The notes beneath the pieces are model-generated. The model did not search any database. It saw only the letters and a program-made list of their open reading frames with translations, and was not told the origin of the DNA. The position numbers and the translations under genes are program-made. Below are positions 8,621 through 29,268 of a DNA stretch of 32,132 bases, in pieces. Origin of the DNA: a virus. Location: positions 1-32,132 of IMG/VR virus record IMGVR_UViG_3300042691_009403, one strand, 5' to 3'. The first letter of the stretch is position 1. Every line of letters begins with the position of its first letter.

Positions 8621-8890
8621 ATGGCAGGAACAGGAGGAAAAAGAGAGGGTGCAGGTCGAAAAGGTTTAGCAGATGAAATAAAAGGCTTTACTTTAGCACA
8701 ACCACACGTACAAGATGCGTTTAGAGTTATTGCAGAAATAATGATAGACGAAACTAAAAGACCAACAGATAGAATAGCAAGTGCAAAGATTCTAATTGAG
8801 TACGGTTGTGGCAAACCAAAAGAAACAGTTGACAATAATATTACTATAAATGACTTTAATATAAAAGATATTGTTAAATTTAATAAATGA
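8621..8890 (+). CDS. candidate small terminase subunit
   Basis: 89 residues. The N terminus GGKREGAGRKG (5-15) is the motif seen at the start of many phage small-terminase and other DNA-binding proteins. A helical part follows, with RIASAKILIEYGCGKPKETV (51-70), the usual layout in Bacteroidetes phages. Its position next to the large terminase supports recognition of packaging sites. The gene is short for a small terminase, and the split from its partner by a GIY-YIG gene is notable. An HTH regulator is the alternative. Confidence 0.65.
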   Translation: MAGTGGKREGAGRKGLADEIKGFTLAQPHVQDAFRVIAEIMIDETKRPTDRIASAKILIEYGCGKPKETVDNNITINDFNIKDIVKFNK

Positions 8891-9537
8891 TAGGAATCTA
8901 TAAAATAACAAGTCCAAGTAATAAAGTTTATATAGGTCAATCTATAAACATAGAAAAAAGATTTAGGTCTTATAAAAATCTATTGCATTGTAAAAATCAA
9001 ATAAAGTTGTATAATTCTTTTTTAAAATATGGAGTTATAAATCATACGTTTGAAGTGTTAGAAGAATGTAGCATTGAATTATTAAATACTAAAGAAAGAT
9101 ATTACCAAGACTTTTACAATGTTTTAAATGGTGGTTTAAATTGTCTATTAACAAAAACAAATGATAGGTCAGGAAAGATGTCTATTGAATCTAGATTAAA
9201 GATGTCTAGTAAACTTATTGGAAATAAACGTACATTAGGATTGAAGCGTTCAGATGAACAAAAAACAAGTATATCAAATAGAATGAAAGGAAAAACTGCT
9301 TGGAATAAAGGAGTTAAAAGAACAGATGAAGATTTAATTAAAATATCTTTAAATAGAAAAGGAAAAATGTTAGGAGAAAATAATCATACTTCTAATTTGA
9401 TTTTAAATTTTGAAACGGGCATTTATTATTTTGGAATAAGAGAAGCTAGTGAATCATATGATAATAAGTATCATTCAATGAGAGATAGGTTAAACGGTAA
9501 AACTAATAATAAAACAAGTTTTAAATGTTTAAAATAA
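8887..9537 (+). CDS. GIY-YIG homing endonuclease with NUMOD repeats
   Basis: 216 residues. The GIY-YIG nuclease domain spans 1-88: GIY 3-5, YIG 15-17, Arg 25 and catalytic Glu 70. Three NUMOD3-like DNA-binding repeats follow (about 99-113, 121-140 and 148-163, with xSxxxKG/WNKG turns) and a NUMOD1-like helix-turn-helix at about 177-214 (GIYYFGIREASESY). This is the modular make-up of a free-standing homing endonuclease. It fills the space between the two terminase genes, with 4-nt and 13-nt overlaps. No intron is visible. Confidence 0.9.
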   Translation: MIGIYKITSPSNKVYIGQSINIEKRFRSYKNLLHCKNQIKLYNSFLKYGVINHTFEVLEECSIELLNTKERYYQDFYNVLNGGLNCLLTKTNDRSGKMSIESRLKMSSKLIGNKRTLGLKRSDEQKTSISNRMKGKTAWNKGVKRTDEDLIKISLNRKGKMLGENNHTSNLILNFETGIYYFGIREASESYDNKYHSMRDRLNGKTNNKTSFKCLK

Positions 9538-27279: not shown

Positions 27280-27679
27280 TAAACATATAACATTTAAAGA
27301 AGCTACATTTTCGGCAACTGCTCAAAGATTAGGTATTAAAAACGAGCCAACATTAGAGCATTTAAAAGCAATGATGACGGTTGCAGAAAAATGCTTTGAA
27401 CCTTTACGAGAATGGTACGGTAAACCACTTAGAATAAACAGTTTTTACAGGGGAAAAGACCTTAATCGTGCAGTCAAAGGGAGTTTGTCCTCGCAACATT
27501 GCAAAGGTGAAGCTATCGACATTGATGCAGGAAGTGTTTCAGAAAATAAAAAGATACATGATTGGATTAGAGATAACCTAGAATTTGACCAATTAATCAA
27601 TGAATTTGGCTATCAATGGTGTCATGTATCATTTACAACAAAAAGACCTAACAGAAAGCAATTATTAGTAATAAAATAA
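27266..27679 (+). CDS. endolysin, M15-type peptidase
   Basis: 137 residues. SQHCKGEAID (76-85) fits the SxHxxGxAxD zinc motif (H78, D85), and WCHVSF supplies H120, the third ligand. This is the M15_3 D-Ala-D-Ala carboxypeptidase/endopeptidase fold, which cuts peptidoglycan cross-links. There is no signal peptide, so it needs the upstream holin-like proteins for release. The preceding small membrane genes support this role. Confidence 0.9.
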   Translation: MENISKHITFKEATFSATAQRLGIKNEPTLEHLKAMMTVAEKCFEPLREWYGKPLRINSFYRGKDLNRAVKGSLSSQHCKGEAIDIDAGSVSENKKIHDWIRDNLEFDQLINEFGYQWCHVSFTTKRPNRKQLLVIK

Positions 27680-27714
27680 CTATCTTTACAACGCATATTT
27701 TCTATTTTAGTTTT

Positions 27715-27743
27715 AAGAGTGTAAAGAAATTTACACTTTTTTT
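27715..27743 (+). terminator. Rho-independent terminator at the end of the late region
   Basis: AGTGTAAA (27718-27725) pairs perfectly with TTTACACT (27730-27737) across a GAAA tetraloop, followed by a T-run to 27743. It ends the lysis unit. Confidence 0.92.
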
Positions 27744-27754
27744 ATTAAATATAG

Positions 27755-27784
27755 TTTGTAATTAAATAAAATTAGTTACATTTG
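27755..27784 (+). promoter_or_regulatory. Bacteroidetes-type promoter of the cassette island
   Basis: TTTG at 27755-27758 and TACATTTG at 27777-27784 (TAnnTTTG), spaced 18 bp: both elements of the consensus are complete. Transcription would start near 27790 and run into the first palindrome. Confidence 0.85.
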
Positions 27785-27805
27785 TCAAAACTAATAATAA
27801 GAAAT

Positions 27806-27898
27806 ATGAAAGAATTTAAGATACATTTATACCGACTAACGTTTTGGTGCTTAGCGAAACGGCTTAAGCGTTATGTACTTGTCGAGCCGATTTGCTAA
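27806..27898 (+). CDS. 30-residue ORF read through the first palindrome
   Basis: MKEFKIHLYRLTFWCLAKRL then KRYVLVEPIC, basic and aromatic. It starts about 16 nt after the predicted transcription start and covers most of the palindrome 27831-27913. It may be a leader peptide, or only a by-product of the repeat. Function is unknown. Confidence 0.35.
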   Translation: MKEFKIHLYRLTFWCLAKRLKRYVLVEPIC

Positions 27899-27913
27899 AC
27901 ACCTGTTATCGGT
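27831..27913 (+). repeat. large imperfect palindrome (attC-like element 1)
   Basis: The left arm 27831-27864 and right arm 27885-27913 pair over about 26 bp in blocks (5, 4, 4, 5, 3 and 5 bp), with a bulged C, small internal loops and a 20-nt loop. The outer ends are ACCGAcTAAC and GTTATCGGT. The element is richer in G and C than its surroundings. The blocky stem with unpaired bases resembles integron attC sites, though the ends do not match the standard cores. Confidence 0.7.
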
Positions 27914-27941
27914 AGTATTTTATTCACACATAAAATAAATT

Positions 27942-28145
27942 ATGAAAATAGTATTTAAAAGACCAAGTGGTTTAGACACTAATAAAAAAATATACACATG
28001 CTCTACTTGTGGTAATTTGTTTAATTGGAATAGTCAATCTTCATGGTTTGGCTCTCAAATGGATTTAGAAAATAATCCTGAAAAGATAAAGTTTGCTTGT
28101 AGTGATAATTGTCAATTCATTGTTCCTTCAAAGTCAAACGGGTAA
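27942..28145 (+). CDS. cassette ORF A: small zinc-finger-like protein
   Basis: 67 residues. CSTC (20-23) and C53-x3-C57 with W30 and W35 between them form a treble-clef-like finger. The gene lies between the two palindromes and is bracketed by the perfect 10-bp inverted repeat GTTATCGGTA (27905-27914) and TACCGATAAC (28158-28167). Codon use is not obviously different from neighbours. Function is unknown. Confidence 0.6.
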   Translation: MKIVFKRPSGLDTNKKIYTCSTCGNLFNWNSQSSWFGSQMDLENNPEKIKFACSDNCQFIVPSKSNG

Positions 28146-28157
28146 CTAACATCATAT

Positions 28158-28288
28158 TACCGATAACGGTTTGCAGATAGGCGAAGAAGCCGTAACGAGA
28201 ACTTAATTAGAAACGATAAATTTGATACTTATGAAAAATATCCTTATAAAACTGAAACGGCTTTTTTGCCTATGTGCTGTTAGCCGTT
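28158..28288 (+). repeat. large imperfect palindrome (attC-like element 2)
   Basis: The left arm about 28165-28193 and right arm 28257-28288 pair over about 26 bp, including a perfect 7-bp inner end (AAGCCGT/ACGGCTT) and 5-bp outer end. The 63-nt loop (28194-28256) contains a TAnnTTTG box and the ATG of ORF B. The left end TACCGATAAC is the complement of the right end of element 1. Confidence 0.7.
28217..28224 (+). promoter_or_regulatory. -7 promoter box inside the loop of element 2
   Basis: TAAATTTG fits TAnnTTTG and lies 6 nt before ATG 28231. No good -33 element is seen at the right distance, so it may be weak. Confidence 0.5.
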
Positions 28289-28428
28289 CGTTGCTTTCTG
28301 ATGATGAAATTAGACACGCATTAGAAAATAGCATAAAGAAGTACAATATTAATGATACGACAAAAGAAATATGGATTGATGGAGCAAAATGGATGCGTGA
28401 TTATATGGCTGGTCGCAATGACGGCTAA
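28231..28428 (+). CDS. cassette ORF B: small hypothetical protein
   Basis: 65 residues from ATG 28231; a TTG at 28222 would add three. The first 20 residues (MKNILIKLKRLFCLCAVSRS) are encoded by the palindrome arm and may not be part of the native protein. The remainder DDEIRHALENS then WIDGAKWMRDYMAG resembles small proteins carried in mobile cassettes and phages. Its stop codon lies inside ACGGCTAAC (28421-28429), which pairs with GTTAGCCGT (28279-28287). Function is unknown. Confidence 0.5.
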   Translation: MKNILIKLKRLFCLCAVSRSLLSDDEIRHALENSIKKYNINDTTKEIWIDGAKWMRDYMAGRNDG

Positions 28429-28429
28429 C
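28421..28429 (+). repeat. terminal half-site of the cassette island
   Basis: ACGGCTAAC is the exact complement of GTTAGCCGT at the right end of element 2. It looks like the left core of a third palindrome whose right half is missing. Confidence 0.55.
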
Positions 28430-28454
28430 TAGCTGATAAGTCTACCATCAATTT

Positions 28455-28490
28455 AAAAGTGTTAATTATAAACTAGTTAACACTTTTTTT
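28455..28490 (+). terminator. Rho-independent terminator after the cassette island
   Basis: AAAGTGTTAA (28456-28465) pairs perfectly with TTAACACTTT (28477-28486), 11-nt loop, T-run to 28490. Confidence 0.92.
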
Positions 28491-28533
28491 ATTAAAAACA
28501 ATCCTATATTAGTTATATAACAAGAATTATCAC

Positions 28534-28541
28534 TATATTTG
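28534..28541 (+). promoter_or_regulatory. Bacteroidetes-type promoter of the recombination operon
   Basis: TATATTTG fits TAnnTTTG, 21 nt before ATG 28563. The -33 element is weak here. It drives the gene series from 28563 on. Confidence 0.75.
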
Positions 28542-28562
28542 TAAAAATTAAATAATAGAAAT

Positions 28563-28745
28563 ATGGCAAAAGTACAAGTAGAATTACCCGATAACATTTA
28601 CAGCATCGGTGAAGAAATAGCTTTTAAAAACAAGCTAAAACCATCTAAGGTTAAAGTAAATGACTTACTTATTAAAATTGCGTTAGACTGCATTAAATAC
28701 CTAGATGATGAAGATTTCCAACAAATAACTGGTTTAAAAAAATAG
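28563..28745 (+). CDS. small hypothetical protein, ribbon-helix-helix-like
   Basis: 60 residues. MAKVQVELPDNIYSIGEEIA then VNDLLIKIALDCIKYL: a first strand followed by two helices, the layout of ribbon-helix-helix DNA-binding proteins. First gene after the promoter, so it may control its own operon, which is inference. No Arc/CopG signature is certain. Confidence 0.55.
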   Translation: MAKVQVELPDNIYSIGEEIAFKNKLKPSKVKVNDLLIKIALDCIKYLDDEDFQQITGLKK

Positions 28746-28749
28746 ATAT

Positions 28750-29268
28750 ATGGAAAGTTTAAAACACATTCAAAGCGAATTAAAGGCTAATAAGACTCAA
28801 TTCAATTCATTTGGTAAATACTATTACCGTAGTTGCGAAGACATCTTAGAAGCGTTAAAACCACTATTAAAAACGTATAATTGTACTTTAACAATTAGTG
28901 ATGAAGTTAAAGAAGTGGGTGGTTTAGTTTTTATTCAATCAGAAGCGAGAATAATCGACAATGAAAGTAAAGAAGAAGTATTTGTAACGGCACAAGCTGG
29001 AATTGATATTAACCGTAAAGGAATGGACGTTTCACAATGTTACGGTAGTAGTTCTAGTTATTCACGTAAATACGCTTTAAACGGTTTATTTTTGATTGAT
29101 GACACTAAAGATTCAGATTCAACAAACGACCATAAGAAACAAACTATTGACAATGTTAGATTTGAAAAGGCATTAGAGCAAATAAGTAAAGGGACTTATA
29201 CAGTTGAAAAATTAAAAGCTAACTTTGAGTTAAGCGAGTTACAAGAAAAAGCATTATCATTACTTTAA
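28750..29268 (+). CDS. ERF-family single-strand annealing protein
   Basis: 172 residues. FGKYYYRSCEDILEALKPLL (21-40), GMDVSQCYGSSSSYSRKYAL then GLFLIDDTKDSDS (about 97-125) are conserved blocks of the ERF superfamily. The family anneals complementary single strands in phage recombination and repair. It would act with the SSB-like protein (30042-30329) and the NinG-like nuclease. Residues after 125 form a flexible linker and a C-terminal helix. Confidence 0.88.
   Translation: MESLKHIQSELKANKTQFNSFGKYYYRSCEDILEALKPLLKTYNCTLTISDEVKEVGGLVFIQSEARIIDNESKEEVFVTAQAGIDINRKGMDVSQCYGSSSSYSRKYALNGLFLIDDTKDSDSTNDHKKQTIDNVRFEKALEQISKGTYTVEKLKANFELSELQEKALSLL

Follow-up and report, generated by a model that had tools for sequence, protein, structure and literature searches.

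A small-gene island in a tailed-phage genome is very likely an array of two cassettes belonging to a widespread integron-like system carried by phages

The window, that is, the whole stretch of 32,132 nucleotides analyzed here (IMG/VR record IMGVR_UViG_3300042691_009403, positions 1 to 32,132), is a tailed-phage genome with terminase, portal, tape measure, and endolysin genes; a GIY-YIG/NUMOD3 homing-endonuclease-like gene at 8887-9537 adjoins the terminase gene. It holds an island laid out, on the + strand like its flanks, in the order element, ORF, element, ORF, core. On the left, the upstream gene ends in an intrinsic terminator (27706..27749), an inverted repeat followed by a T run that is conserved in contigs L021-L024. 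The fixed left flank (ATGAAAGAATTTAAGATACATTTAT; 27750..27831) is a promoter-like region with a start codon entering the array; it is 95% identical in contig L257 and contains a TAnnTTTG motif, seen by eye, which we take to be of the Bacteroidota promoter type. The idea that 27808-27835 is a relic of an ERF start was dropped; L257 shows this flank to be fixed. Element 1 (27833..27912), an attC-like site also recovered by site scanning, has the cores CGACTAAC and GTTATCGG with spacers of 5 and 1 nt, and encodes a mini-ORF (27873..27938; MYLSSRFAKHLLSVVFYSHIK) that, on translation, stops just before ORF A. The latter, identified from the ORF list (27942..28145), encodes 67 residues with two CxxC/CxxxC-type motifs and is the cargo of cassette 1. 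Element 2 (28160..28286) is a second attC-like site with the cores CCGATAAC and GTTAGCCG. ORF B (28231..28428; 65 residues) starts inside element 2, from which its translation takes the start codon and the first ~16 residues (MKNILIKLKRLFCLCA), and its stop codon lies inside the terminal core. This core, ACGGCTAAC, and the attI-like site formed by TAAC followed directly by TAGCTGATAAG occupy 28421..28440 and close the array, as they do for different arrays in L021, L023, L256, L257, and L260. The right flank consists of a terminator and promoter unit (28441..28562), within a stretch from 28418 to 28752 that has 93% identity to L257, and a gene for 60 residues outside the cassettes (28563..28745), which is common to L257 and absent at this place in L021-L024. 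No family match was found for ORF A or ORF B, the former falling below all Pfam cut-offs.

All four cores were confirmed and each is unique in the window (GTTATCGGTA at 27905, TACCGATAAC at 28158, GTTAGCCGT at 28279, and ACGGCTAAC at 28421), and exact complementary cores bracket both cassettes. The original prediction of two palindromic elements with exact cores, each followed by an ORF, in an island between two terminators and with its own promoter therefore held, except that the element boundaries were refined and that two terminator/promoter units enclose the island. These units are repeats of each other, with 71% identity between 27722-27808 and 28469-28565. Within the refined boundaries, each element comprises an imperfect stem of ~20 bp and the outer cores, with a 5-nt spacer on the left and a 1-nt spacer on the right. 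Folding of the + strand beats that of dinucleotide shuffles (z = -4.9 for element 1 and -3.5 for element 2, with 0 of 200 shuffles as good), and the - strand folds less strongly (z = -3.3 and -1.5, respectively). That the folded single strand is the substrate for recombination is inferred, as only the stronger folding of the + strand has been computed. A cross-paired element pair like that of the island did not arise in 10 shuffles of the window, and no matching Rfam family was found for the elements. REP/RAYT elements were considered and dropped, since neither such a motif nor a transposase was seen.

The key lead to a wider family of sites came from a protein search with ORF B, because the matches, in two other viral contigs, were confined to the first 20 residues, which element 2 encodes; the corresponding search of viral contigs with ORF A gave no match. 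DNA alignment revealed that the whole of element 2 is common to other contigs, where copies with 93% (L004), 92% (L203), and 87% (L003) identity precede other cargo and the likeness ends at the cores. A 19-base pattern from element 2 retrieved 11 viral stretches, and a left-arm pattern from related sites retrieved at least 120, a lower bound as the scan stopped at its limit. Scanning a genome collection with the right arm of element 2 returned only five matches, all unrelated chance hits, and a Blast comparison of the island with named phages and plasmids gave nothing above chance level. With a scanner for the pattern AAC-spacer-stem-loop-stem-spacer-GTT, we found 223 sites in 79 loci drawn from the pattern-matched viral stretches, compared to 33 when the sequence was reversed as a control. 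Most of the excess falls on unequal left/right spacings, namely 5/1 (120 versus 2), 5/2 (34 versus 1), and 6/2 (26 versus 1), and the sites in any one contig lie nearly all on a single strand.

The 341 unique sites collected share unequal spacers and a covarying 20-bp stem with a sharp end, in which nearly every position accommodates several Watson-Crick pair types. Stem positions 12-20, which played no part in finding the sites, share this variety, and in the main class 75-89% of their pairs are Watson-Crick, except for a conserved G.T at position 14. Across the (5,1), (5,2), and (6,2) classes (L107-L225), we also observed that a conserved G.T at position 13-14 is accompanied by G.G/C.A mismatches at positions 4-5. 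Such fixed mismatches could possibly be strand-choice marks that replace extrahelical bases. Sites with the spacing of this family occur in Polaribacter phage P12002L, and members of the family are also present on Chryseobacterium plasmid NZ_CP041688 (L240/L241) and Emticicia plasmid NC_018742 (L242), where they have the classical position: all six plasmid sites inspected lie at the 3' end of a gene. The Emticicia plasmid stretch also holds kwaA, kwaB, and an RloB family gene.

The mobile unit can be deduced from two features of these arrays. First, over 134 intervals, the right core of one site and the left core of the next are complementary at a mean of 7.16 of 8 positions and perfectly so in 94 cases, compared to 5.41 (sd 0.08) for permuted pairs; cores within an element pair only at chance level (5.36). 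Pairing across cassettes is expected from cassette insertion, since both ends of a cassette join into one site in the circular form. Second, DNA blocks of 200 nt or more that are shared between contigs start at an AAC core in 17 cases (GTT in 4) and end at one in 28 (GTT in 0), where ~2% would be expected by chance for each. Whole units recur in different surroundings, for example between L118 and L196 (341 nt, 100% identity), L006 and L206 (654 nt, 99.8%), and L146 and L154 (459 nt, 100%). As shared blocks start and end at the AAC of the left core, the mobile unit is a site and an ORF, in that order. In all 115 clear cases among the phage cassettes, the ORF reads away from a site at its 5' end; phage cargo is thus inverted relative to the site when compared to the classical layout seen in the plasmids. 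A classical layout, with the leader being part of the preceding cassette, had been entertained and was reversed by the block-breakpoint and Freya analyses, so that the site is now seen to lead its ORF rather than to trail it.

The locus in the window is a natural gene-swapping slot, in which cassettes have been exchanged between the same flanks. L257 matches the window on the left (94.9%, 27675-27849) and on the right (93.4%, 28418-28752), yet the array enclosed is a different and larger one of ~2.2 kb, in which an 82% copy of element 1 leads another ORF and one cassette resembles those of L124, L152, and L200. The terminal site, in which TAGCTGATARG follows TAAC, ends other arrays in L021, L023, L256, and L260, with ERF on one side and the next gene on the other wherever both can be seen; L024 has no terminal site in that ERF-adjacent position. 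None of L021-L024 has the island at the position it occupies in the window.

Turnover of cassettes is also evident in cultured phages. The isolates of Polaribacter phage Freya (from Polaribacter sp. HaHaR_3_91) are 99.8-100% identical around the array in the stretches compared, but the content of the array differs. Gains and losses are clean, with every breakpoint at an AAC core, and the changes abut AAC followed by ACCCCTATAAC, 46 nt before the recombinase ATG. Freya_1, 2, 5, and 9 track Freya_10 to four different AAC cores before jumping to AAC followed by ACCCCTATAACAACAATAAG, 46 nt upstream of the integrase ATG. In Freya_8, one interior segment is missing from core to core; compared to Freya_5, Freya_6 has an insert of 472 bp at the recombinase-proximal site; and Freya_9 and Freya_10 differ by exactly 307 bp, with a junction that shares only AAC. 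Overall, the junctions share merely 3-7 nt, and AAC is part of this in every case. The sites of Freya itself show less regularity than those of the main class.

In some phages, a tyrosine recombinase of 264-319 residues is encoded at the 3' end of the array, in the same reading direction as the ORFs; the arrays of L106/L105 and L013 end directly in a gene for a 264-residue enzyme. Such a gene was found in nine of 48 array-bearing records searched, and at eight of ten recombinase loci of array-bearing contigs the gene is closely preceded by sites on its own strand. A lone terminal core precedes nearly all phage recombinases and in most cases complements the last GTT core exactly. Polaribacter phage Leef_1 (L229) has the same layout, and the recombinases of Freya and Leef, with arrays directly upstream, are ~35% identical to that of L106. 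The best family match of the phage recombinase is XerA / NF040815, "site-specific tyrosine recombinase/integron integrase" (3.4e-48), yet its 164.5 bits remain below the 220-bit family cut-off. The IntI model matches in two pieces (153.5 bits versus a cut-off of 265), and alignment with IntI4 reveals that the phage enzyme is without ~48 residues, being split where IntI has its extra insertion. The solved structures nearest to its predicted structure (pLDDT 84.5, pTM 0.59) are those of XerA (5hxy) and IntI4 (2a3v). The adjacency of these genes to the arrays is observed, but the role of the encoded enzyme as catalyst is inferred. A separate case is the 246-kb contig IMGVR_UViG_3300025030_000041 (L232, L239), which has two different array-linked recombinase genes with sites directly upstream of each.

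The window itself, with two sites and an attI-like site, is among those without an identified recombinase: neither its record nor five relatives, some of them fragmentary, yielded a tyrosine recombinase. We infer that the enzyme acts in trans, presumably from a co-infecting phage or the host. The original prediction that it must come from the host needs correction; since other phages also encode the recombinase, its source need not be the host chromosome. The interpretation of the last core as half of a lost third element failed, because such arrays end in a lone core as their normal attI-like terminus. The proposal of recombination sites of a cassette system that moves small genes into phages held, and its assignment to Bacteroidetes is supported indirectly, in that the nearest cultured phages and the site-carrying plasmids are flavobacterial or cytophagal. 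The checks proposed beforehand came out in its favor: many copies beside unrelated small ORFs (in other phages), related phages with the same flanks but different cassettes or none, and breakpoints at the TAAC/GTTA cores.

As the site is at the 5' end of the cassette, it often encodes the start codon and N-terminus of the cargo. Among frames that stay open for at least 120 nt past the GTT core, 95 of 143 (66%) have an in-frame ATG inside the site, compared to 90 of 372 (24%) among those closing earlier (p = 1.5e-18). Several cassettes have no other plausible start, and the methyltransferases in L128, L131, and L127 begin only in the site. Homologous protein bodies occur with and without a leader (L203/L146, L121/L224, and L124/L200). 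Conversely, one leader can precede different bodies, as in L111/L194, L206/L222, and the window with L003 and L203; the element 2 leader of ORF B is joined to other cargo in L003/L004 and L203. For at least five distinct lipoprotein-like cargos, the signal peptide is largely site-encoded. A segment of the element 1 mini-ORF, FAKH-LLSVV, resembles leaders encoded by elements elsewhere, such as FAKH-VLPAV in L128. The open frames through the sites are established, but that the leaders are translated is inferred from them in the absence of translation data.

Taken together, we consider it very likely that the island consists of two cassettes arrayed at an attI-like site and belongs to a widespread integron-like system carried by phages. 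In the proposed mechanism, a small tyrosine recombinase, acting in trans in the present case, would act on folded attC-like hairpins and recombine their AAC/GTT triplet. Cassettes, in which an ORF follows its hairpin, would be inserted next to TAAC, ahead of TAGCTGATAAG, and excised core to core, and the 5' hairpin would often provide the first residues of the protein along with its start codon, as for ORF B, or a coupled mini-ORF, as before ORF A. The site family, the cassette boundaries, and the exchange of cassettes both in the window locus and in cultured phages have been shown.

Three rival explanations were considered. The one that survives best, although still very unlikely, is a classical phage CALIN, that is, cassettes with 3' attC sites that derive from a host chromosomal integron and are moved only by the host IntI. 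In its favor, CALINs are known in phages and one phage-borne Polaribacter attC is recombined by IntI1 (Qi et al. 2023, PMC9892861), and the Chryseobacterium and Emticicia plasmids have the same site family in the classical position. Against it, the site is on the 5' side in 115 of 115 clear phage cassettes and shared blocks are site plus ORF, phages encode their own array-linked recombinase, and the movement of cassettes between near-identical isolates takes place at a site that the phage itself encodes. Mosaicism through homologous or illegitimate recombination between similar palindromes, without any site-specific enzyme, is likewise improbable to a high degree: elements of the same subfamily are up to 93% identical between phages and could thus serve homologous recombination, but the Freya junctions share only 3-7 nt and breakpoints always fall at the same triplet in dissimilar elements. 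Finally, fixed RNA structures (attenuators or regulatory leaders) located around small genes by coincidence would fit the overlap of the hairpins with start codons and their folding on the coding strand, but are all but excluded, as the elements recur before unrelated ORFs, the cores pair across cassettes and not within elements, whole units of site and ORF are present or absent, Rfam offers no match, and the exchange of arrays between flanks shared by the window and L257 refutes such a main function. A secondary effect of the hairpins on translation remains possible.

The phage system shares the cassette logic of integrons: arrays, imperfect-palindrome sites ending in AAC/GTT, and insertion next to a recombinase gene, with end cores that are complementary across the cassette, crossover within the GTT/AAC triplet (Freya_9 and Freya_10 share exactly AAC, and blocks end at AAC), and, in Freya, an attI-like entry site next to the recombinase gene. 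Classical attC sites have roughly equal spacers and extrahelical bases. The phage sites instead have spacers of 5-6 versus 1-2 nt and stem mismatches at fixed positions, and do not meet the integron core consensus RYYYAAC / GTTRRRY, with GTTA nearly fixed and the next position mostly T in the main class. Moreover, integron attC sites lie at the 3' end of the ORF and phage sites at the 5' end, and the phage recombinase lacks the extra insertion of IntI and scores under the integron-integrase cut-off. A further difference is the common reading direction of ORFs and recombinase gene, with the latter at the 3' end of the array. Since several tests that define classical integrons failed, we file the system as a variant. 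Phage-borne attC sites as such were already known; the phage CALINs of PMC9892861, including that of P12002L, are similar in that virulent phages lacking an integrase carry small cassettes with attC-like sites, but the relevant sections of that paper report no such phage recombinase, reversed layout, translated sites, or turnover between isolates. What we describe is accordingly a new variant.

Short ORFs in attC and ORF-11 of attI1 act by translational coupling, as reviewed in PMC8876359, and resemble the phage sites in that a start codon in the recombination site helps translation of the cassette. In those systems, however, the short ORF stops and the cassette restarts, whereas the phage frame often continues across the core, and the N-terminus itself is thereby encoded by the site; only the mini-ORF of element 1 resembles coupling of that kind. 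Systematic in-frame fusion of site and cargo was not found in the literature searched. A bolder reading, which we lean towards without much confidence, is that of a phage-encoded integron class with a translated site, in which cassettes are inverted and the hairpin supplies the start codon and N-terminus of the cargo, sometimes including a lipoprotein signal peptide. If so, site-specific recombination would deliver ready-to-express, sometimes pre-addressed, proteins into phage genomes. The recombination hairpin would have to serve DNA folding and protein coding at once, and in-frame fusions of site and gene bear on how new cassettes arise, which is an open question.

The system would constitute a dedicated gene-capture platform of phages, apparently active in cultured isolates. 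In the paper on the isolation of Freya and Leef (PMC8776804), the integrase was presented as evidence of a potential temperate lifestyle; the sections bearing on it do not discuss the array differences of Freya. We observe that these "lysogeny integrases" (Freya, L243-L255; Leef_1, L229) sit at array ends and look like cassette recombinases, and an integrase gene may hence be an unreliable sign of lysogeny in flavobacterial phages. The gain and swap of accessory genes by phages, such as those for DNA methyltransferases, Mom, and lipoproteins, becomes directly testable. Among 143 cassette proteins, the recognizable families are mostly DNA methyltransferases (eight N6/N4 and one C5), with single matches to Mom, P22_AR_N, Rad52, RNA ligase, and others. 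The prevalence of methyltransferases, with one Mom protein, among the recognizable cargo (in L014, L127, L128, L131, L138, L213, L220, and others) suggests selection for anti-restriction functions.
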